Positions 7,393 to 18,943 of a stretch of DNA of 23,621 nt are shown here, one piece after another. Made by a program: the position numbers and the translations under genes. Origin of the DNA: a virus. Every line of letters starts with the position of its first letter. Within the stretch, counting starts at the first letter, position 1. The stretch lies in the IMG/VR virus record IMGVR_UViG_3300044678_000489, positions 1 to 23,621 of that record; one strand, written 5' to 3'. The notes under the pieces are model-generated. The model did no database searches. It was given only the letters and a program-made list of their open reading frames with translations, and was not told the DNA's origin.

Positions 7393-7866
7393 ATGCCAAC
7401 AGACAACTTAGGCTACACCCCCGGCACCGGCGCGAAAGTCGCTACCCGCGATGCCACGTACAGCGGCGAAGCGGCTCATGTGCAGGTTCTTGGGCTAGCG
7501 ACGCTTGCGGGGCCGGACGACGCGAAAACGGCGACCGATGTCTCGCAGGCCGCGCCGCTGCCGGTCATGCCGCTCGGCGAGCTGGTGGAGGCGCTCGAAG
7601 CGCAGCGCATGGCACTGCAAGCCTTGACCCGCACGATCGGGCAGTCGATGCCGGATGTGTCGGGGCGGCTGCGCGTGGCGATCGACGCGATCTCGGCATC
7701 GCTCACGCTCTCGACCATCTCGACAATCAGCAGCGTGACGACCGTGACGACCGTGTCGACGGTGTCGAACCAAACGAACATGGGCGGCTTCAGCGCCACG
7801 GAACAGATCCCGGTGCTCATGCGGCTCGGCATCGGCAACCTTCGCGGCAACATTTCGGTGACCTGA
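7393..7866 (+). CDS. Phage protein with Thr/Ser/Val three-residue repeat
   Basis: The start is ATG 7393, four bases after the previous stop, giving 157 residues. After a polar N-terminus and a helical stretch (GELVEALEAQRMALQALTRT) comes a run of three-residue units around 112-130 (TIS, TIS, SVT, TVT, TVS, TVS). Such runs suggest a trimeric beta-structured stalk. The C-terminus (FSATEQIPVLMRLGIGNLRG) is more globular. A helix followed by a thin repeat stalk is what short trimeric fibres look like, but the function is not known. Confidence 0.6.
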   Translation: MPTDNLGYTPGTGAKVATRDATYSGEAAHVQVLGLATLAGPDDAKTATDVSQAAPLPVMPLGELVEALEAQRMALQALTRTIGQSMPDVSGRLRVAIDAISASLTLSTISTISSVTTVTTVSTVSNQTNMGGFSATEQIPVLMRLGIGNLRGNISVT

Positions 7867-7867
7867 C

Positions 7868-9313
7868 ATGGCGACCACGAACGGCAATAGGAAGATTCTC
7901 GATCTGAAGCGGTGGGAGTTCTGCTCGCCCGCCCCGTCGAGCACTGCGACCGCGCATTTCATCGTGTCGTCGCGGCACTACCGGCAACAGCAGATGCTTG
8001 TGACGAGCAACACTGCTGCTGCGCTGTACAACCCGCTCGAGGACGCATGGATCACGCTTCCGTCGCCCGCGCTTGCGGGGACTTTCGGTGCGGGGGCGTG
8101 CGGCGTTGCCGGCAGCTTCAGCACCGGCACGACGGTGGCCGCGTCTTCGCTGCCGGTGAGTGCGGGCGTGGGTACGACGACGATCAGCATCACGACGAAC
8201 CAGACGCTCGCGCGTGACCTGCGCGGGTACAGCGTGTACTTCGTCGGCGGCACGAACGCGGGCAAGCTCAAGACGATCGCGTCGAACACGATCGGCGCGA
8301 ACGCGGTGATTACCTTCACGGAAGCCGAGGCGACCGCGTTCGACGCGACGAGCACGTTCAGGCTGAAGACCCCTGTTTTCTACGTGCTCGGCGCGGGCAC
8401 GCTGGCGTCGGCGAGCTTCCGCAAGTATTGCTTCGCCACGAACTCGTGGACCACGCTGACGCAGACCGGCCTGCCGGGAAGCGTGACGACGGATAGCAAG
8501 CTCATCTCGACGCCCGCGTGGATCGACAGCGGATTCAAGAGCTTCGCGACCGGCACGGCGACTGCGGGTGCTTCGACCACGCTGACGAACAGCGCGAAGG
8601 CGTGGACGACGAACCAGTGGACGAATTATCAGATCCGCATTACCGCCGGCACTGGCGCGGGGCAGATTCGCACGGTCGCGAGCAATACGGGCACCGTCAT
8701 CACCGTCGGTAGTGCATGGACGACGACGCCCGATGCAACGTCGCAGTACAGCATCGAGGGCAATGACGACTTCCTGTACTACATGGGGAGCGGCGTCGTC
8801 ACCCTGTACCGCTACTCGATCAGCGGTAACTCGTGGTCGACGCTGAGTCCCGGAGCCGCGCGGGCTGCCGCGCCCGGTGCTGGCATGTCGGGCCACTGGA
8901 TTCATTCGGTCTCGGCAAGCGACTGGACGAACGAAAACGCGATCCTGAACGGGCGCTACATCTACAGCTTCCAAGGCGCCAACACAACCGGCCTGCATCG
9001 CTACGATATCGCCGGCAACACCTGGGCCACGATTACCTACGCGCCGCCGGGCGACGCGATAAGCGCCGGCACGAAGTGGGCGTACAACAAAGACCGGCTG
9101 TACATGCAGCGGGACAACACCGGCCGCTGGTTTTGCTTCGACTTCGCGGAGCAGGCGATGCAGCCGTGGAGCACGATGACGTACACGCAGGGCGCAGCGG
9201 TCCTCGGCGATACCGCGTTTGACGTCACGTACCGCGACGGCGCGACGGAGATCGACTACGTGTACATGCTGCTGAACACCAGCAACGTGATGCTGCGGCA
9301 AATGGTGATCTGA
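7868..9313 (+). CDS. Kelch-like beta-propeller virion protein with duplicated insert
   Basis: This 481-residue protein starts at ATG 7868, one base after the previous stop. Kelch-type blades are suggested by repeated patterns of tyrosine- and tryptophan-containing strands (YNPLEDAWITL, CFATNSWTTL, YRYSISGNSWSTL, HRYDIAGNTWATI). Between blades lie two copies of a Gly/Thr-rich domain, at about 84-166 and 226-297. Both contain a GxxAGxxxTIASNT-like core and end in DATSxxxxI. The protein ends in a beta segment (YVYMLLNTSNVMLRQMVI). A carbohydrate- or protein-binding role on the particle surface is inferred. It is too regular to be an antisense shadow. Confidence 0.7.
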   Translation: MATTNGNRKILDLKRWEFCSPAPSSTATAHFIVSSRHYRQQQMLVTSNTAAALYNPLEDAWITLPSPALAGTFGAGACGVAGSFSTGTTVAASSLPVSAGVGTTTISITTNQTLARDLRGYSVYFVGGTNAGKLKTIASNTIGANAVITFTEAEATAFDATSTFRLKTPVFYVLGAGTLASASFRKYCFATNSWTTLTQTGLPGSVTTDSKLISTPAWIDSGFKSFATGTATAGASTTLTNSAKAWTTNQWTNYQIRITAGTGAGQIRTVASNTGTVITVGSAWTTTPDATSQYSIEGNDDFLYYMGSGVVTLYRYSISGNSWSTLSPGAARAAAPGAGMSGHWIHSVSASDWTNENAILNGRYIYSFQGANTTGLHRYDIAGNTWATITYAPPGDAISAGTKWAYNKDRLYMQRDNTGRWFCFDFAEQAMQPWSTMTYTQGAAVLGDTAFDVTYRDGATEIDYVYMLLNTSNVMLRQMVI

Positions 9314-9483: not shown

Positions 9484-10803
9484 ATGCTGTTGACGCTGCT
9501 CGCTCCGTCGAGCGGCCCGCGACTTTACGCGGTCATCTACGCGTCCGCGCTGGCCGCGCCGTCGGCCGCGCAGATCAAGGCCGGGCAGAACGTCAACAGC
9601 ACGGCGGCGACGTGGGCCGGCTCGATCGCCGCGCCGACATCGACGCAGACGGTCGACTGGCCGAGCCTTGCGACGGGGCTCACGGCGGGGACGAGCTACC
9701 GCGTCAGCTTCGTCTGGTCGGACGGGACGGCGAACTCGGAACGCGACACGTCGGAGCCGTGGACGACCGATGCGGCGGGGTCGACGTACGCCGGCACCAT
9801 AAGCGAATCGGTCAGCATCGCCGATTCGATAAACGGCGAGTCGACTCTTGGCGTCACGGTCACTGAGTCCGTAACGCTATCGGATTCGCCGTCCGGCGCG
9901 GGCACGTTTGGCGTCAACGTCAGCGAGTCCGCGACGCTGACGGATGCGCTCGACGGCGCGGTCGCGTACCCCGGCACGCTGACCGAGTCGGCGACGCTAA
10001 CGGACTCGCTGTCCGGTGTGCCGGCGTTTGACGGCACGTTGTCGGAGTCCGCAACGCTCACCGACTCGCTGTCGGGCGTGACGGTCATGGCCGGCACGGT
10101 GTCGGAGACGGCAGCAGTCACCGACACGCTGTCCGGTGCGGCGACGCTGGACGTAACGCTGTCGGAGACGGAAAGCGTCACCGATTCGCTGTCGGGCGTG
10201 GCGACGCTGGGCGGTTCGATCAGCGAGTCCGCAACGCTCACCGACTCGCTGTCGGGCGAGATCATCCCGGCCGGCGCAGTGCCGGGGACGCTGTCCGAGT
10301 CGCTGCCGATCACGGACGCGTTCAGCGCGACGGTGATCTACGGCGGGACGCTGTCGGAACCGTCGGCGCTGTCGGATGCGCTGTCGGTCTCCGGCGGCAC
10401 GCCGGTTGAATCTGCGGAGCCGTACCCCAAGCCTGCCGGCCGCCCGAAACCGCGTCGGTACGTGGTCGAGGTGGACGGCGAGGACTTCATCGTGGAGTCC
10501 GTCGAGGAAGCGCAGGCGCTGCTCGCGCGTGCGGTGGAGGTGGCCGAGGAAGCCGCCCCGCAAGCGGTCAAGCGTGCGCGGCGTCAGGCGGCCCGCAAGA
10601 AAGCGCCCGAGACGCAAGTGCCGGTGCCGGTGGTGCAAGTCACCGAAGGCGCGGACGCGGCGTTGCAGGCGATGGTGGCCGAGATCCAAGCGCGCATCGA
10701 CGCAGCCTACGAACAGGCGGCCCGTGACGAGGAATTGCGCCTGTATCTCGCAGCGCAAGCTCGTGAGCAAGACGACGAGGAGGCAGTGCTGCTGCTGTTA
10801 TGA
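9484..10803 (+). CDS. FN3-like protein with tandem SESATLTDSLSG repeats, probable fibre
   Basis: The 439 residues have four parts. Residues about 10-95 look like a fibronectin-III type domain (APSAAQIKAGQN, LATGLTAGTSYRVSFVWSDG). From residue 104 to about 304 there are ten units of roughly 20 residues with core GTLSESATLTDSLSG, rich in Ser, Thr and acidic residues. About 310-350 carries RRYVVEVDGEDFIVESVEEA, a segment seen near the end of similar phage proteins. The rest is helical with a basic cluster (KRARRQAARKK) and an acidic end. Repeat number probably sets fibre length. It ends in an ATGA overlap. Tail or head fibre is inferred; the receptor, if any, is unknown. Confidence 0.7.
   Translation: MLLTLLAPSSGPRLYAVIYASALAAPSAAQIKAGQNVNSTAATWAGSIAAPTSTQTVDWPSLATGLTAGTSYRVSFVWSDGTANSERDTSEPWTTDAAGSTYAGTISESVSIADSINGESTLGVTVTESVTLSDSPSGAGTFGVNVSESATLTDALDGAVAYPGTLTESATLTDSLSGVPAFDGTLSESATLTDSLSGVTVMAGTVSETAAVTDTLSGAATLDVTLSETESVTDSLSGVATLGGSISESATLTDSLSGEIIPAGAVPGTLSESLPITDAFSATVIYGGTLSEPSALSDALSVSGGTPVESAEPYPKPAGRPKPRRYVVEVDGEDFIVESVEEAQALLARAVEVAEEAAPQAVKRARRQAARKKAPETQVPVPVVQVTEGADAALQAMVAEIQARIDAAYEQAARDEELRLYLAAQAREQDDEEAVLLLL
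9793..10398 (+). repeat. Tandem in-frame repeat array, about 60-bp units
   Basis: Ten units begin at 9793, 9850, 9910, 9973, 10033, 10093, 10153, 10213, 10285 and 10345. Most are exactly 60 bases; the exceptions are 57, 63 and 72, all multiples of three, and the last is incomplete. A 34-base stretch is identical at 10045-10078 and 10225-10258, exactly 180 bases (three units) apart, which points to recent internal duplication or gene conversion. Confidence 0.9.
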
Positions 10804-12117: not shown

Positions 12118-13089
12118 ATGCCTGCTATTACCGGTACTAACCAGTCTTTCGGCGTCGGCACTGCCGGCGGTCTGCGCGAGGACCTCGAAGATGTGATCTG
12201 GGACCTCTTCGCCGAGGAGACCTGGGCGCTGACCAACCTTGACAAAGTGGACGCGTCCGCCGTCTACCACGAGTGGATGACCGACGCGCTCGTCGCGCCG
12301 GCCGCCAACCGACAGGTCGAGGGTGACGACGGCACGTTCGCGTCGATCTCGCACCCGGTGCGGGTCGGCAACTACCAGCAGATCAGCTCCAAGATGTTCG
12401 TCATCTCGGGCACGCTGGAGGCCGTCAGCAAGGCGGGCCGCAAGAAGGAAGCGGCGCGTCAGGCGATGAAGCAGATGCGCGAACTCAAGCAGGACATGGA
12501 GTTCGCGACCGTCCGCAACCAGGGTTCCTCGGCCCCGGCGTCGACCACCGCTCGCTCGACCGCCTCGATGGAGTCGTGGCTCTCGACCAACGAGATCCTC
12601 GCCACCAGCACGTCGTCGGCCACCACGCCGGGCTTCGTGTCGGGCGCCGTTGCGGCCCCGACCGACGGCACGACCACGGGTGCGCTGACCGTCGCGGCGC
12701 TGAACAGCGCGCTGCAAGGTGCGTGGTCGGCGGGTGGTCAAGTGACGACCATCCTGACCGGCCCGACGCAGAAGCTCGTGATGGACGGCTTCACCGGCAT
12801 CGCGACCCGCTTCGTGGACAACGGGCGTTCGCAGCAGGCGTCGATCATCGGCGCGGCGGCGATGTACGTGTCCTCGTTCGGGACGCACGCGATCCGCCTG
12901 CACCGCCACGTCCGCTCGTCGGTCGTGCTGTGCCTGGACCCGGAGTACTGGGCCATCTCGTTCCTGCGCCGGCCGTTCACCACCGACCTCGCCAAGACCG
13001 GCGACGCCGACAAGAAGGCGATGTACGTCGAGTGGGGTCTGGTCTGCCGCAACGAGAAGGCTTCGGCCAAGGTCGTCGCGCTCTCTTGA
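12118..13089 (+). CDS. Major capsid protein (SU10/DUF5309-like)
   Basis: The 323-residue protein carries the stretch YQQISSKMFVISGTLEAVSK (about 86-105) followed by a long charged helix (KKEAARQAMKQMRELKQDME, 109-128) and FATVRNQG. That is the signature of the SU10-type major capsid family with the HK97 fold, where the helix is the spine helix. An N-terminal arm (about 1-45) and a Ser/Thr/Ala-rich region (about 136-180) precede the A-domain. The C-terminal half contains TILTGPTQKLVMDGF, VLCLDPEYWAISFLRRPF and ends VALS. It follows scaffold with a four-base gap. This is the most abundant virion protein and a candidate target of the downstream modification enzymes. Confidence 0.92.
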   Translation: MPAITGTNQSFGVGTAGGLREDLEDVIWDLFAEETWALTNLDKVDASAVYHEWMTDALVAPAANRQVEGDDGTFASISHPVRVGNYQQISSKMFVISGTLEAVSKAGRKKEAARQAMKQMRELKQDMEFATVRNQGSSAPASTTARSTASMESWLSTNEILATSTSSATTPGFVSGAVAAPTDGTTTGALTVAALNSALQGAWSAGGQVTTILTGPTQKLVMDGFTGIATRFVDNGRSQQASIIGAAAMYVSSFGTHAIRLHRHVRSSVVLCLDPEYWAISFLRRPFTTDLAKTGDADKKAMYVEWGLVCRNEKASAKVVALS

Positions 13090-13107: not shown

Positions 13108-13138
13108 GAGGGGGCCGGGGCAACTCGGCCTCCTTTCT
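13108..13138 (+). terminator. Terminator-like hairpin after the capsid gene
   Basis: GGGGGCCG (13110-13117) pairs with CGGCCTCC (13126-13133), with one G-U wobble, around loop GGGCAACT. A TTTCTC tail follows, and A13109-T13134 can add a pair. It could attenuate transcription after the capsid gene so that downstream genes are made in smaller amounts. Its 3' side reaches to within a few bases of the next ATG. Confidence 0.65.
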
Positions 13139-13139
13139 C

Positions 13140-13466
13140 ATGCCTGACTTCTTCGATTACGACCCGCTCAAGGGCGTCACATCTTTCTTCGACTACGACG
13201 ACGCGACGGGCATTGCGACCATCCGCAAGGTGCAGGACAACTCGCTGCTGCTCGACTACGCAGCCGAGGCCCGCAACGCGGGGCTGTCGGATCGCAAGTA
13301 CAAGAAAAGCGACTGGGCGCTGTACTGCTACATCCCCGAATGGCTGGAGATTGAATTGATGAAACGCGGTTTGAGCATCGACCGCGTGGACGACCACCGC
13401 AAGATTCTGTCGATCATCAACCGGGAGTTCCCGGCGATGAAGATGACGGATAAAACGCATGCGTGA
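13140..13466 (+). CDS. Small phage protein after the capsid gene (108 aa)
   Basis: The ATG at 13140 lies directly after the post-capsid hairpin and has no Shine-Dalgarno sequence before it (the adjacent sequence is CCTCC-type, the opposite of one). The N-terminus MPDFFDYDPLKGVTSFFDYD with its FxYDPLxGxxxxFxYD pattern is a style I associate with small proteins next to podophage capsid genes, so I keep this start. A globular part follows (SDRKYKKSDWALYCYIPEWL, IELMKRGLSIDRVDDHRK). Function is not known. The last eight bases overlap the next gene. Confidence 0.7.
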   Translation: MPDFFDYDPLKGVTSFFDYDDATGIATIRKVQDNSLLLDYAAEARNAGLSDRKYKKSDWALYCYIPEWLEIELMKRGLSIDRVDDHRKILSIINREFPAMKMTDKTHA

Positions 13467-14832
13467 GGCCGACGCGATCCGCAAGGTTGCGGAGAAGGGC
13501 GAGACGGGCCGCGCGTGGGCGATGTTGAAGCCGGTGCTGGTGGAGCATCCCGACGATGCGCGGGTGCTGATGCTGGCGACGTACATCCTTGATCGGCAGG
13601 GCGAGTTCGGTGCCGGTTACCAAGTCGCCAAACGGGTGTGCGACCTCATGCCGCACAACGCGTCCACGTGGCTGAACATGGGCAAGATGTGCGACAACAT
13701 CTGGCGAATGGACGAAGCGATCCAGTGCTACGAGAAAGCACTGACGTGGGCGCCTGACGCAGCCGCAAAAGTGATGTGCTACGTCAACATCAGCGCGGCG
13801 CACATGCAGATGGGGCGCTTTCGCAAGGCTGCGGACTATGCCGAGCGGGCGCTGAGAATCGACCCCGAGTCGCGCAAGGCGCGTCACAACCTGGGGCTGG
13901 CGCAACTTGCGGCGCACGACTGGCGCAACGGCTGGAAGAACTACCGCTTCTCGATGGGAAGCGATGCGCGCCCGCAGTACAACTACGGCAAGGCCGGCGA
14001 GTGGCACGGCGAGCACGACAAGATCGTCGTGGTGACCGGCGAGCAGGGGCTAGGCGACGAGATATGCGCAGCGAGCGTCTACCCAGACTTGATCGGCGTC
14101 TCCAAGCGCGTGATCGTGGACACGGTGCCGCGCCTTGTGGGCCTGTTCGCACGCTCGTTCCCGCAAGCCAAGGTGTACGGCACGCGCGGCGACAAGGTGC
14201 TGGACTGGGATGCGGAGGACACCGAGCCTGACGCCTCGATCACGGCGATGCAGCTCGGCGAGTATTTCCGCAATGCGGACGCCGACTACACGGGCGATGC
14301 GTACCTGACGCCGTGCCCAATCCGCACGGAAGGCTGGCGCGCAAACTTCCGTGCGATGAACCGGCCCGTGATCGGTGTGGCGTGGACGGGCGGCATCTTG
14401 CAGACGGGCGCGAAGTGGCGCCGCTGGACGCTGGAGGACTTGCTGCCGGTGTTCCGCGCGATGCCGCACGCGCTGTTCGTGTCCTTGCAGTGGAAGGACG
14501 CGCACGACGACATCGCGCTGTTTCACATGAAACACCCCGACGTGAACCTCGTGCAGTACCCGTGGGCGATGCTCACCGACGACTACGACGACACGGCGGC
14601 GCTGGTCGCTGCGTGCGATGCGGTGGTGTCGATGCAGACCAGCGTCATCCACTTGGCGGGCGCGCTCGGCGTGCCGACGTATGTGGGCGTCTCCAAGGTG
14701 AGCCAGTGGCGCTACGGCGAATCGGGCGACACGCTGCCTTGGTATCGCAGCGTGCGGCTGTTCCGGCAGGCGCAGGACGAGAAGTGGCCGATGGACAAGA
14801 TCGTGGAGGCGGTGAGTGCTAATCACGGATGA
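13459..14832 (+). CDS. TPR-glycosyltransferase fusion, O-GlcNAc-transferase-like architecture
   Basis: This 457-residue protein has about four to five tetratricopeptide-like helical pairs over residues 10-165 (NASTWLNMGKMCDNIWRMDE, CYVNISAAHMQMGRFRKA). A glycosyltransferase region then shows a G-loop GEQGLGDEI at 194-202, a block IGVAWTGGI, DTAALVAACDAVVSMQTSV leading to H398 and LAGALG (399-404), and WYRSVRLFRQ at 428-437. Those C-terminal blocks are the hallmark of GT9/GT41-like TPR glycosyltransferases (GT-B fold) that bind a nucleotide sugar; the TPR part usually recruits a protein acceptor. It starts at ATG 13459, overlaps the preceding gene by 8 bases and the methyltransferase by 17. 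Donor and acceptor are unknown. Confidence 0.85.
   Translation: MREADAIRKVAEKGETGRAWAMLKPVLVEHPDDARVLMLATYILDRQGEFGAGYQVAKRVCDLMPHNASTWLNMGKMCDNIWRMDEAIQCYEKALTWAPDAAAKVMCYVNISAAHMQMGRFRKAADYAERALRIDPESRKARHNLGLAQLAAHDWRNGWKNYRFSMGSDARPQYNYGKAGEWHGEHDKIVVVTGEQGLGDEICAASVYPDLIGVSKRVIVDTVPRLVGLFARSFPQAKVYGTRGDKVLDWDAEDTEPDASITAMQLGEYFRNADADYTGDAYLTPCPIRTEGWRANFRAMNRPVIGVAWTGGILQTGAKWRRWTLEDLLPVFRAMPHALFVSLQWKDAHDDIALFHMKHPDVNLVQYPWAMLTDDYDDTAALVAACDAVVSMQTSVIHLAGALGVPTYVGVSKVSQWRYGESGDTLPWYRSVRLFRQAQDEKWPMDKIVEAVSANHG
14805..14809 (+). promoter_or_regulatory. Ribosome binding site for the GTG start at 14816
   Basis: GGAGG inside the end of the glycosyltransferase gene lies 6 bases before GTG 14816. 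It supports that non-ATG start for the methyltransferase over later in-frame candidates. Confidence 0.65.
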
Positions 14833-15352
14833 GTACCGCTCGCAGCAGCGGCAGATGCACGAGAAATACGACTACGGCACTGCGTCGCTGACGTACGCGC
14901 CGATGGTCGCGCAGATCATCAACGCCAACCGTGTCGGCGAACTGCTCGACTACGGCGCGGGGCGGATGAACCTGATGCGCGCCATCAGCGACCAGCGGAT
15001 GGTCAATCACCCGTTCCGCTATATCCCCTACGAGCCGTCCAACCCGGACTTCTCGGACCCGCCTGCGCCGGCCGAGATGGTGGCGTGCGTGGACGTGCTG
15101 GAGCACATCGAACCGGACTGCCTGGATGACGTGCTGGACGATCTCAAGCGCGTCACCAAGGGCATCGGGTTCTTTACGGTGGCGTGCGGGCCGGCGGCGA
15201 AGGTGTTGCCGGACGGCAGGAACGCGCACCTGATCCAAGAGCCGCCCGAGTGGTGGCTGCCGAAGCTGCTGGAGCGGTTCGACTTGTACACGTTCCAACG
15301 CATGCCGGGTGGCTTCGCGGTGTCGGTAGTCAGCAAGGACATGCCCGAGTGA
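14816..15352 (+). CDS. SAM-dependent methyltransferase (class I)
   Basis: The 178 residues start at GTG 14816. SAM-binding motif I is LLDYGAGRMNL (43-53), with an acidic-end motif YEPS at 72-75. The segment VACVDVLEHIEP (89-100) is the typical post-motif DVLEHI. The C-terminal part carries DGRNAHLIQEPPEWW, a block I associate with phage methyltransferases that accompany glycosyltransferases. The small size (about 180) fits a minimal Rossmann enzyme without an extra substrate domain. Placed between two glycosyltransferase genes with overlaps on both sides, it most simply methylates the sugar that they attach; nucleic acid or protein as substrate is less likely but not excluded. Confidence 0.82.
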   Translation: MLITDEYRSQQRQMHEKYDYGTASLTYAPMVAQIINANRVGELLDYGAGRMNLMRAISDQRMVNHPFRYIPYEPSNPDFSDPPAPAEMVACVDVLEHIEPDCLDDVLDDLKRVTKGIGFFTVACGPAAKVLPDGRNAHLIQEPPEWWLPKLLERFDLYTFQRMPGGFAVSVVSKDMPE

Positions 15353-16035
15353 TTCGCCTCTTTACCGGCCACGACGCGCGCGAGGAAGTCGGGACGTGGG
15401 TGTTTGCGTCGTCTGTCCTGCGTAACAGCAGCGTGCCCGTGCAGTTCATGCCGCTGTACAAGCCGGCGCTAGAAACGGCTTTCCGCGAGTCGTTCAAGGA
15501 AGGCACGAACGGCTTCACGATGTCGCGCTTCCTCATCCCGGCGCTCTGCGACTTCTCGGGCACGGCGATCTTCGCGGACGGCGCCGACATGGTGTGCCGT
15601 GGCGACCTTGCCGACCTCGACGCGCTGCGCGACCCGCAGTACGCGGTGCAGGTGGTCAAGCACGATTACGTGAGCCGCCATCAGCGCAAGTACATCGGCA
15701 CGCGGATGGAGGCGGGTAACTCGCACTACCCGCGCAAGAACTGGGCGTCTCTCATGCTCATCAACTGCGCGCATCCGGCGTGGCGCGAGATGACGCCCGG
15801 AGCGGTGGCGCGCTGGACGCTCGCCGAGCTGCTGCAACTGCGGTTTCTGCCCGACGCGCTGATTGGCTCGCTGCCGCTCCAGTGGAATTGGCTTTGCGAC
15901 GAATACGGCCCGTCCAGCGACGCAAAGATCCTGCACTGGACTGCGGGCATCCCCGGATTCCCCGCCTACGCCGACGCGCCGATGGCGCCCGCGTGGCGCA
16001 GCGCGCACGAGCGCATGAACTACGCGACGGACTGA
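15349..16035 (+). CDS. GT8-like phage glycosyltransferase
   Basis: The start is GTG 15349, overlapping the methyltransferase stop (GTGA), giving 228 residues. The N-terminus IRLFTGHDAREEVGTWVF is followed by TMSRFLIPALCDF and AIFADGADMVCRGDL (73-87), whose D77xxD80 resembles the metal- and nucleotide-sugar-binding DxD of GT-A enzymes. Later come HYPRKNWASLMLINC and a histidine-containing end KILHWTAGIPGFPAY, as in GT8-type folds. It probably transfers a hexose from a nucleotide sugar. It has no membrane segment, so it is cytoplasmic. It ends two bases before the adaptor gene, within the same transcript as head and tail genes. Confidence 0.82.
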   Translation: MIRLFTGHDAREEVGTWVFASSVLRNSSVPVQFMPLYKPALETAFRESFKEGTNGFTMSRFLIPALCDFSGTAIFADGADMVCRGDLADLDALRDPQYAVQVVKHDYVSRHQRKYIGTRMEAGNSHYPRKNWASLMLINCAHPAWREMTPGAVARWTLAELLQLRFLPDALIGSLPLQWNWLCDEYGPSSDAKILHWTAGIPGFPAYADAPMAPAWRSAHERMNYATD

Positions 16036-16036
16036 C

Positions 16037-16633
16037 ATGGCGATCACCAACTACCTAGAGTTGCGGCTAGAACTTGCCGAGCGCATAAACCGCAGCGACG
16101 TTGCGGGGCGTGCCGCGTCGGCGGTGGAGCTTGCCACTAAGCGGTTATCGCGCGAGTTGCGTCTGCCGGAGATGGAGAAGCTTGCCACCACGACGGTCAT
16201 CGCCGAGTGGACCGAGTTGCCCGACGACTTCCAGGAGATCCGCTCGATTTATGCGGGCGACGACGCGCTGGAGTACCGCACTCCGTGGCAGTTGCAGAGC
16301 ATGGCGCAGCGCACGTACCGGCCGCATGTGCCCGTCTACACCATTGCCGACATGTCGTTCCGCATCTACCCGACGCAGACCGACCTTGACGTGCGCGTCC
16401 TCTACTACGCAAGCATCCCCGCTCTGGTGAACGACACCGACACGAACTGGCTGCTGGACAAGTACCCGGACGTGTACGTGGAGTGCGGCATGGCAGACCT
16501 GAATCGCTGGGTCAAGGACTACGCGGCGGCGCGTGAGCATGAGGCGTACGTGCAGAAGTTCATCGAGGATTCCAAAGCGCGCAGCCGACGCATCGCTTAC
16601 GGCGCCGCGCCCATCGCTGTGAGGGTTGCGTAA
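16037..16633 (+). CDS. Head-to-tail adaptor protein
   Basis: This 198-residue, largely helical protein begins YLELRLELAERINRSDVA, continues with FVELATKRLSRELRL-like helix (VELATKRLSRELRLPEMEKL), then a beta section with LPDDFQEIRSIYAGDD and FRIYPTQTDLDVRVLYYASI. A C-terminal helical part reads YPDVYVECGMADLNRWVKDY. This order (helical bundle, beta insertion with YP, then long helices) is that of phage adaptors of the P22 gp4 / SU10 adaptor type, which form the ring under the portal. Size also fits. The placement after the capsid region and before nozzle genes supports it. Confidence 0.78.
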   Translation: MAITNYLELRLELAERINRSDVAGRAASAVELATKRLSRELRLPEMEKLATTTVIAEWTELPDDFQEIRSIYAGDDALEYRTPWQLQSMAQRTYRPHVPVYTIADMSFRIYPTQTDLDVRVLYYASIPALVNDTDTNWLLDKYPDVYVECGMADLNRWVKDYAAAREHEAYVQKFIEDSKARSRRIAYGAAPIAVRVA

Positions 16634-17610
16634 TGCCGTTCCAACTCGTTGCGGTCAAGCAGGCCAAGTCGTTCAGCCTGACGGGGCAAGCGTCGCCTCT
16701 GTCGCTGTCGTTCGACAGTTCAGTCGCAGCCGGTAGCACGATCGTCGTAATCGGATCGGCCATCGAGTCGACCGATCAAGCGGCGTTGCTTGGCACCGTG
16801 TCTGGCGGCTCGGCGACCTGGGGCAGCGCGACAAACACGCGCAGCGCGGGCGACTTCCTGCCGAACGTGTGTGCGGCAGTCGGCGTCAACGTATCGGCCG
16901 GCTCGCCAACTTTCACGATTCCGTTTACGACCAACGGCGTCGCGTCGACCAACTTCCGGTTCACCGGAATGCTGATCGAAGTTGAGAAAGTGCCGACTAG
17001 TGGCGTCGTTGCCAACACGGTGACGGGCACCAGCAGCGGCGCGGCCAGCACCAGTACATCGGCAACCGGCACGCTTGCGCAGACCGACAACCTTGTGATC
17101 TTGTGCGCGGGCGGTTGGTTTGGCGTGCCGGTGAATCCGGCGGGCTATACCGAGCGGCTGAACGTGCAAAACGGCTCGTTCATCGGCTGCCACGTCTCGA
17201 CCAAGAAAGTCACTGCGACGACGACGCAGACGGGCACGGTCAATCACGACACGGCGCCTGCTGCCAGCGCCATCATGCTGGTGCTGAAAGCCGCTGACGA
17301 CGCTGCGTTCCTTTACGAATTCCTGTTCCCGGCCACCGGCACCGGCTCGATGCCGTCGGCGCAAGGGACCATCCGGGCGGTCGTATCGCGTAACCGCGAT
17401 CCGTTCACGACCGGCACGTATGAGTATTACTCGTCGCTGACCGCAGAGTCGGGCACGGCACCGGGCGATGCGACATCGCGCCGCGTGCTGATCACTTCGG
17501 GCCTGCCTGCGGGGCTGTCGGTGTCCGACACGTTGCGGGCGTCTTTCGAGACGGCAGACGCATCGACGGGCGCGGTCGGCTGGATTCCGGGCACGGTAAA
17601 GGCGGTCTGA
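16633..17610 (+). CDS. Beta-sandwich virion or tail protein (325 aa)
   Basis: The ATG at 16633 overlaps the adaptor stop (TAATG). The first two thirds have strand patterns SPLSLSFDSSVAAGSTIVVIG, GSATWGSATN, FTGMLIEVEKVP and NLVILCAGGWFGVP, like bacterial and phage surface domains that wrap an aromatic-lined beta-sandwich. The final 110 residues (FLYEFLFPATGTGSMPSAQG, VLITSGLPAGLSVSDTL) may be a second small domain. It is very rich in Ser, Thr, Ala and Gly, without enzymatic motifs. It sits among short-tail genes, so a tail fibre or receptor-contact protein is the likeliest reading, at low certainty. Confidence 0.6.
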   Translation: MPFQLVAVKQAKSFSLTGQASPLSLSFDSSVAAGSTIVVIGSAIESTDQAALLGTVSGGSATWGSATNTRSAGDFLPNVCAAVGVNVSAGSPTFTIPFTTNGVASTNFRFTGMLIEVEKVPTSGVVANTVTGTSSGAASTSTSATGTLAQTDNLVILCAGGWFGVPVNPAGYTERLNVQNGSFIGCHVSTKKVTATTTQTGTVNHDTAPAASAIMLVLKAADDAAFLYEFLFPATGTGSMPSAQGTIRAVVSRNRDPFTTGTYEYYSSLTAESGTAPGDATSRRVLITSGLPAGLSVSDTLRASFETADASTGAVGWIPGTVKAV

Positions 17611-17611
17611 C

Positions 17612-18943
17612 ATGGCCGTCGATTACATCGCGATCATCCGCGACGACAACACGCTTTTCCACGACGGCCCGTCGGGCGTCTTGGAAGTGCTGCAAGGCTG
17701 GGGATCGGGTGCGTCGCCGCCCGAGACGACCGCGCAGCCGTCCGGGTGGACATCGTACGTGCCGTGGGCGCACTTGATGCGCGATGCGACGGGCGCTCAA
17801 GCCGCGCTGTCGGCGGCCGATGCTGGCCGTCCGTGGCGCGACACGCGGGCGCGACTCGGGAACAGCGCCGTCAATTCCCGCATTCACGCCCGGCATCAGC
17901 AGATGCTATGGCTGCTCAATAACGGGCAATGGGTAACGGGCTACTACGGCGACCAGTTTGGCGACGTGGTGTACCCGTTCGATTGGCTGGAGAACAACCA
18001 GTCAACGATGCCGCAACCGAACTTCCGGCGTTTCCATGAGGGCGGCGGTTCGTCTATCCGCGCGATCTCGCTCGCCAACGACACGCGCAACCCGTCGAAC
18101 CCGAATCAGTGGCGAGATTGGCAGTGGCACCCGTTTGGCTCGCGCGAGTTGGTGCCGTCGGGTTGGGTCGGCGCGCTGTCCTGCTTCTTCGCGCGGCGCA
18201 TCGTTGACGACCCGGGCGGCCCGGATGACCGCGATTTGATGAACGTCTTGGGCGGCTGTTCATGGGATTGGTACTTGTCGCAAGTGCTGGCGCAGCCGCC
18301 CGCGCAGGGCGTCAACGTGCTGTATGGCGGCTTCTCGCGGCTCAAGTACCTGACGAACGACTGGCAACTGTTCGCCAATACGAACCTGACGGAAGCGCAA
18401 CTGCGGGCCAACCCGCCGCCGATTACGGGGCTGGACTTGCTGGAGGTGGACACGACGACGCCGCCCGTGGTAGTGCCGCCTGTGCCGACCTTCTCGCGCG
18501 GTCGCTGGCTGACGCGGTTGTCGGGCGGAAAGGGGCAGTGGTTTACGAAGGACCCGCAGCTTGCCGAGAAAGCGGTGTGGGAGCAGCCCGCGCCGACTGC
18601 GACGGTGAACATCGGTGCGACCACGACAATTTCGCCGCAAGTGACGAACCCCGGCGTACCAGCCGCGACGTTCACCAAGCAATCGGGGCCGGCGTGGGCG
18701 ACGGTGAACGCGTCCACGGGCGTTGTGACGTTGACCAGCATTGCGGGGCCGGCCGGCACGCAGACAGTCGTCGTGCGGGCGTCCAACGCCTCGGGCAACG
18801 CCGACTTGTCGATCGTGCTGACGGTGCGCGATGCCTCGGTCGTGACGCCGCCCGATCCGCCGCCCGATCCGACGCCGTCGGAGTGGACGCGCATTCCGCG
18901 TGACGCGGAGGTTTGGATTCGCGTTCCTCGAGGTTCGTCGTGA
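17612..18943 (+). CDS. Tail-associated protein with Ig-like C-terminal domain
   Basis: The 443-residue protein starts one base after the previous stop. The N-terminal 270 residues form a globular region with many Trp and Asp (WAHLMRDATGAQAALSAADA, WLLNNGQWVTGYYGDQFGD, WDWYLSQVLAQPP) that I cannot assign. After a proline/valine linker (PPVVVPPVPTFSRGRW), residues about 330-410 resemble a putative Ig-like or cadherin-like repeat (AATFTKQSGPAWATVNASTG, then VVVRASNASGNADLSIVLTV). The end is a proline-rich segment and a short TRIPRDAEVWIRVP motif. It is likely part of the tail or an adhesin. It overlaps the nozzle gene by four bases (GTGA). Confidence 0.6.
   Translation: MAVDYIAIIRDDNTLFHDGPSGVLEVLQGWGSGASPPETTAQPSGWTSYVPWAHLMRDATGAQAALSAADAGRPWRDTRARLGNSAVNSRIHARHQQMLWLLNNGQWVTGYYGDQFGDVVYPFDWLENNQSTMPQPNFRRFHEGGGSSIRAISLANDTRNPSNPNQWRDWQWHPFGSRELVPSGWVGALSCFFARRIVDDPGGPDDRDLMNVLGGCSWDWYLSQVLAQPPAQGVNVLYGGFSRLKYLTNDWQLFANTNLTEAQLRANPPPITGLDLLEVDTTTPPVVVPPVPTFSRGRWLTRLSGGKGQWFTKDPQLAEKAVWEQPAPTATVNIGATTTISPQVTNPGVPAATFTKQSGPAWATVNASTGVVTLTSIAGPAGTQTVVVRASNASGNADLSIVLTVRDASVVTPPDPPPDPTPSEWTRIPRDAEVWIRVPRGSS

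Follow-up and report, generated by a model that had tools for sequence, protein, structure and literature searches.

A glycosyltransferase and methyltransferase cassette between the capsid and adaptor genes of SU10-type podoviruses, proposed as a FlmG-like protein O-glycosylation module

Glycosylation of the capsid has been shown in few phages. In FlmG of Caulobacter crescentus, the proven case of a related architecture, a tetratricopeptide repeat (TPR) domain binds flagellin, which is glycosylated by a GT-B domain (PMC7591256). Beside the gene for type B flagellin in Clostridioides difficile lie genes for an initiating glycosyltransferase, an extending glycosyltransferase and sugar methylation (PMC5207246), and glycosylation of mycobacteriophage virions has been described (Freeman et al., 2023, as cited in PMC12691614). 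Here we analyze a 23.6-kb fragment of a viral contig (IMG/VR record IMGVR_UViG_3300044678_000489, positions 1 to 23,621; "the window"), in which three overlapping genes, encoding enzymes that we term TPR-GT, MT and GT8-like, lie between the genes for the major capsid protein and the head-tail adaptor. By analogy with the flagellin systems, and with a probability that we put at roughly 60%, the cassette would be a phage-encoded, FlmG-like cytoplasmic module for protein O-glycosylation, directed at a virion protein, capping its glycan by O-methylation and sharing ancestry with gene sets found beside flagellin. The gene set, its conservation, the intact motifs, the folds and the linkage to flagellin described below were established by computation.

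All three genes lie on the plus strand, at the positions, and with the overlaps of 17 bp (TPR-GT/MT) and 4 bp (MT/GT8-like), that had been read from the sequence in the original prediction; its placement of them between the capsid region and the adaptor (PF17236 upstream, PF24175 downstream) was also borne out. The TPR-GT (13459-14832, ATG start, 457 amino acids) has the FlmG-type plan, with TPRs at the N-terminus (residues 1-165) and a GT-B domain at the C-terminus (residues 185-457), as judged from an AlphaFold 2 model (predicted local distance difference test score, pLDDT, 94.9) and from Pfam. With the window protein, Pfam gave TPR repeats over the cut-off and a weak match to Glyco_transf_9 (GT9), a family also matched weakly, besides TPR, by 13 of 40 TPR-GT family members. 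In a structure search, the top solved folds were SPINDLY and OGT (E = 5e-12 to 1e-9). The template modeling (TM) scores over the whole chain were low (0.27-0.39), and the modeled resemblance is therefore one of class rather than of orthology. Positions QGxGD, GG, R321, YD, D387 and G404 were invariant and H398 nearly so. From its modeled architecture, we propose that the TPR-GT is the initiating protein O-glycosyltransferase. Like FlmG, it would be a cytoplasmic enzyme acting on a structural polymer made in the same cell; FlmG is larger (596 amino acids), has a longer TPR part and acts on flagellin, the likeness being one of domain plan, and it transfers pseudaminic acid made by dedicated genes (PMC7591256), none of which occurs in the window. 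The TPR-GT gene also adjoins a capsid gene, and flagellin was absent from every viral locus examined. The enzyme is thus FlmG-like in plan and is not classed as FlmG.

The MT (14816-15352, GTG start, 178 amino acids) is a class I S-adenosylmethionine (SAM) methyltransferase of Methyltransf_23 type. The window protein alone matched that family at E = 7e-4, below the Pfam cut-off, whereas 27 of 32 family members matched at E < 0.01. Its invariant motifs are LDxGxG (SAM motif I), CxDVLEHxE and DGRNAH, and D45 and G47 are among its predicted catalytic residues. A search of its profile against PDB sequences gave nothing convincing. The motifs and profile lead us to propose a sugar O-methyltransferase. 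For the GT8-like protein (15349-16035, GTG start, 228 amino acids), the Pfam match of the window sequence alone was also below the cut-off (E = 0.09), although 28 of 35 family members matched PF01501. The AlphaFold 2 model (pLDDT 93.7) has a GT-A fold, matching the GT8/GT24 enzymes WbbM, LARGE1, UGGT, GlyE and LgtC, and the invariant motifs are D77xxD80, an acidic metal site, and H196xTxG. These features place it in glycosyltransferase family 8, and on the basis of the model we propose that it extends the glycan, as a variable member of the set. The catalytic motifs of all three enzymes, whose visibility had been predicted, were invariant across alignments of 32-41 divergent sequences. The median ratio of nonsynonymous to synonymous substitution rates (dN/dS) for the cassette was about 0.07-0.11, similar to that of the capsid and indicative of purifying selection. 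The motifs and this ratio rule out decayed enzymes. G+C content at third codon positions was 0.88-0.90, equal to that of the structural genes, which rules out recent import of the cassette into the phage.

To judge from the published descriptions, the C. difficile type B system follows the same logic of initiating glycosyltransferase, extending glycosyltransferase and methylated sugar; it differs in using another glycosyltransferase superfamily (Pfam 00535), a fused glycosyltransferase-methyltransferase and a Gram-positive host (PMC5207246). The mycobacteriophages, likened here by description, resemble the window in that phage-encoded glycosyltransferases decorate virion proteins, and differ in being actinobacterial phages (both points from PMC12691614). 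Our literature search, which reached few subscription papers, found no published description of the TPR-GT/MT/GT8 set in phages. We know of no such set in mycobacteriophage virion glycosylation.

That no such system had been described, as the original prediction supposed, thus holds for the literature but not for the databases. GenBank contains a metagenome phage, Podoviridae sp. ctDrO704 (MW202512), with the trio in the same order in the capsid-adaptor slot, unremarked in a record that makes no functional claim; it differs by an extra inserted open reading frame (ORF; annotated endonuclease), and its enzymes are 35-43% identical to those of the window. No cultured phage with the cassette turned up in our analysis.

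A test of conservation free of bias towards the cassette was provided by 58 viral loci fetched by capsid similarity alone (48-69% identical; the counts include near-copies of the window). On contigs long enough to tell, the TPR-GT gene followed the capsid gene in 42/42, the MT gene was present in 31/33 and the GT8 gene in 26/29. A profile census covered the 79 loci in which a capsid gene is followed by 5 kb or more of sequence. The cassette occurred in 66 (TPR-GT in 66, MT in 62, GT8 in 49), some of which had been fetched by MT or GT8, which biases the proportions for those two genes. The gene orders were TPR-GT>MT>GT8 (29 loci), TPR-GT>GT8>MT (18), TPR-GT>MT (15), TPR-GT alone (2) and TPR-GT>GT8 (2). 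The 13 loci lacking it were from reference phages with 34-44% capsid identity, including LUZ24, Venkman and HTVC106P. In the reverse test, a search by MT alone, the gene was in the capsid-adaptor setting in 68 of 73 new viral contigs: 50 had the capsid gene 1.7-3.4 kb upstream and 18 were short contigs with TPR-GT and/or the adaptor, the other five being placed elsewhere. Conservation of the slot in all three sets of loci rules out accidental cargo. The minimal conserved unit is TPR-GT plus MT, with GT8 as a variable add-on. A cassette of three genes had been predicted; the three enzymes do look active from their sequences, but the core comprises two genes, the third comes and goes, and gene order swaps.

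Viral MT genes without TPR-GT or capsid neighbors were seen at loci L301, L310, L311, L313 and L315, possibly reflecting other uses of the methyltransferase. In more distant phages, homologues lie in other virion-gene settings: between the head genes and Hc1 in Tetraselmis viridis virus S20, after the coat gene in Roseobacter CRP-9, and after tail genes in Caulobacter CcrColossus. In S20 (locus L003, 6455-12038), glycosyltransferase, "sialyltransferase" and methyltransferase genes follow one another between the head genes and the head closure gene Hc1; this glycan cluster is larger than the cassette and its position is comparable. In Sinorhizobium phage phiM5 (locus L156, 7349-8659) the cassette is replaced in the capsid-adaptor slot by a GDSL/SGNH hydrolase annotated as found in the particle proteome. 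In other phage lineages (L092, L121, L136, L140), GT8 relatives (45-48% identical) precede terminase genes by 1-3 kb, so that members of this family turn up again near virion genes in the absence of the TPR-GT/MT pair.

A scan of bacterial genomes for the MT family gave matches mostly in Beta- and Alphaproteobacteria (46-59% identity), the nearest chromosomal ones being mostly betaproteobacterial. No phage structural gene of the window's kind was present at 79 of the 80 bacterial loci, which look chromosomal. All three enzymes were encoded at 21 of these 79, and a flagellin gene (confirmed with PF00669) was present at 8 of the 21, compared with 0 of the 58 others (Fisher, 8e-6). Tepidimonas charontis has MT-GT8-TPR-GT-flagellin as one uninterrupted series (L176, 9989-14840), and a Comamonadaceae metagenome-assembled genome (L172, 3785-10516) has flagellin-flagellin-TPR-GT-GT8, with a divergent MT. 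Both look, from their gene content, like flagellin glycosylation islands. Like the phage cassette, these sets have all three families, contiguous or nearly so, beside a presumed acceptor gene; they differ in that this gene encodes flagellin and the locus is chromosomal, with a function that is itself predicted. Identity to the phage enzymes was 55-56% for MT and 39-48% for GT8, but only 23-25% for TPR-GT. Over all flagellin-linked versions, TPR-GT was likewise the furthest from the phage form (23-32%, versus 46-56% for MT). Several further genomes also had TPR-GTs less than 10 kb from flagellins. In two genomes (G054, contig C100:21685-32627; G073, contig C5:98228-111086), multiple TPR-GT homologues formed tandem arrays.

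The original prediction had named, as grounds for its refutation, the trio being common outside virion operons, next to lipopolysaccharide (LPS) or nucleotide-sugar genes. In one sense these grounds apply, since the trio does occur on chromosomes, but it was there seen beside flagellin genes; among 15 sampled loci without flagellin, LPS and nucleotide-sugar genes were not a dominant class, most of the Pfam matches of the neighbors being to TPR proteins, to methyltransferases or to housekeeping families. The position of the chromosomal trio beside flagellin therefore strengthens the reading that the target is a protein, and the comparison suggests that the bacterial flagellum-decorating kit and the phage kit share an origin. 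A tree of 96 MT sequences required at least seven phage/bacterium label changes, three of them forced by well-supported branches; its deep forks are weak and it has no polarity, and we discarded it as a guide to the direction of transfer.

By analogy with the flagellin systems, the acceptor would be the product of the neighboring polymer gene, which in this phage is that for the major capsid protein. The original prediction of a virion-protein target is supported by conservation of the slot, the protein O-glycosyltransferase architecture and the homologous sets beside flagellin. We regard some virion protein as the likely target, and the capsid protein as more likely than not. Capsid residues ~136-197 (DNA ~12523-12708) form a variable segment rich in serine and threonine, with the densest such stretch (19/40 residues) among lineage-conserved proteins. 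The mean Ser+Thr fraction of this segment in the lineage was 0.34, compared with 0.16 elsewhere in the protein and with 0.25 for the segment in cassette-less relatives, the rest of the protein showing no difference. Divergence of the TPR domain tracked that of the segment beyond what the rest of the capsid protein, the scaffold and the 108-residue protein encoded upstream of the cassette account for (partial r = 0.43-0.50; 17-31 loci), and more closely than did the portal, the scaffold or the 108-residue protein. The segment ranked top of 35 protein segments (n = 17), with a partial r of 0.43 at n = 31. At 52 loci the value for the TPR domain was 0.30, compared with 0.06 for the GT domain in the mirror-image test. 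Permutation p values for co-divergence ignore relatedness and were not used as evidence.

Several observations weigh against the capsid as acceptor, or against so close a tie to flagellin. The Ser/Thr comparison is phylogenetically confounded, the cassette phages being one lineage, and in ctDrO704, the one distant phage with the trio, the segment has a Ser+Thr fraction of only 0.26. The partial r for TPR-loop co-divergence dropped to 0.30 at 52 loci, where other capsid segments reached 0.26; because the signal was strong at 17-31 loci and weaker at 52, we keep it as a hint only. Flagellin was absent from the stretch examined at 71 of the 79 chromosomal MT loci, which rules it out as the sole bacterial partner, and TPR-GT profile matches are numerous in those genomes (up to 32 per genome), close MTs being essentially single-copy; judging from this gene content, bacteria also put these enzymes to uses other than flagellin. 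Finally, the virion operon contains other Ser/Thr-rich ORFs (7393-7866; 7868-9313, kelch-like; 9484-10803; 16633-17610) and an Ig/Rib-like ORF (17612-18943), any of which could be another glycan acceptor or a receptor-binding part.

The same chemistry might thus be directed at a different virion protein, such as one of these ORFs, a fiber or Ig-like protein, or the 108-residue protein (13140-13466, plus strand, phrog_3982), a conserved product separate from the enzyme set, whose gene is nearly always present between those for the capsid and the TPR-GT and overlaps the latter by 8 bp. We consider this unlikely. The 108-residue protein is poor in Ser and Thr (0.10, at most 6/40), a protein of similar size is kept at this position in cassette-less LUZ24-like phages, and the loop co-divergence favors the capsid over it; ORF 16633-17610 is restricted to a few close relatives, whereas nearly the whole lineage has the cassette.

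The phage had been described as P22-like, an affiliation that is ruled out by its structural families: the portal (PF23899, SU10_portal, E = 1.5e-165), the major capsid protein (12118-13089, plus strand; PF17236, E = 3e-78; solved relatives 9ny2 and 7z45) and the adaptor (16037-16633, plus strand; PF24175, E = 2e-23) are all SU10-type, and from these matches the head module is SU10/LUZ24-like. The adaptor gene, which borders the slot downstream, is separated from the end of the GT8-like gene by 1 bp. A promoter and terminator scan found neither a terminator nor an internal promoter above shuffled expectation between the capsid and adaptor genes, and the arrangement therefore fits transcription of the whole stretch on a single late transcript. 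A weak stem-loop (5-bp stem, T-rich tail), not above chance, lies just 3' of the capsid gene at 13117-13132, matching in position a terminator annotated after the capsid gene of LUZ24. Reduced read-through there might leave the cassette less strongly expressed than the capsid.

It is known that phages can modify O-antigen, and the LPS-acting GT8 enzymes LgtC and WbbM were among the fold matches. A late change of the host surface, in which a methylated sugar on LPS or capsule blocks re-adsorption of progeny or superinfection, nevertheless appears quite improbable: the virion-operon slot is kept across capsid divergence to about 50% identity and contains no flippase, acyltransferase or membrane enzyme, the modeled initiating enzyme is a TPR/GT-B protein of the protein O-glycosyltransferase kind, and the chromosomal trio is linked to flagellin. 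That the cassette acts on host flagellin rather than on virions, for example altering motility or flagellum-dependent adsorption, is suggested by the homologous sets flanking bacterial flagellin genes but seems very improbable given the late-operon placement, the strict tie to capsid genes and the greater divergence of TPR-GT than of MT from the flagellin-linked versions, as expected after a change of acceptor.

For the FlmG-like module acting on a virion protein, the enzymatic activities, acceptor, sugar and sequence of steps that we infer would be as follows, the order being tentative. The TPR domain would dock on a freshly synthesized virion protein, the likeliest site being the Ser/Thr-rich loop of the capsid protein from the same operon, and the GT-B domain would use a host nucleotide sugar to attach the first sugar. 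In phages that have it, the GT8 enzyme would add a further sugar. The methyltransferase would O-methylate the glycan, yielding mature capsids with a short methylated glycan. The earlier interpretation, of a virion protein decorated with an O-methylated glycan, is made more specific by the FlmG-like architecture and the flagellin-island ancestry, and is corrected on taxonomy and core set.

The chances seem about even that capsid glycosylation is obligatory throughout a large lineage of SU10-type podoviruses, most of them uncultured, and that the module responsible has common ancestry with bacterial flagellin-glycosylation islands, its TPR domain having switched target from flagellin to the capsid loop, or the other way round if transfer ran in reverse. 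The link to flagellin islands provides a direct, testable substrate rule, by which the neighboring gene encodes the polymer that the TPR domain selects, and the module might serve for O-glycosylating self-assembling shells in the cytoplasm. If the proposal is correct, the presence of such a module in nearly all members of a broad environmental lineage would imply methylated sugars on the capsids of many podoviruses, which would affect adsorption, stability and recognition.

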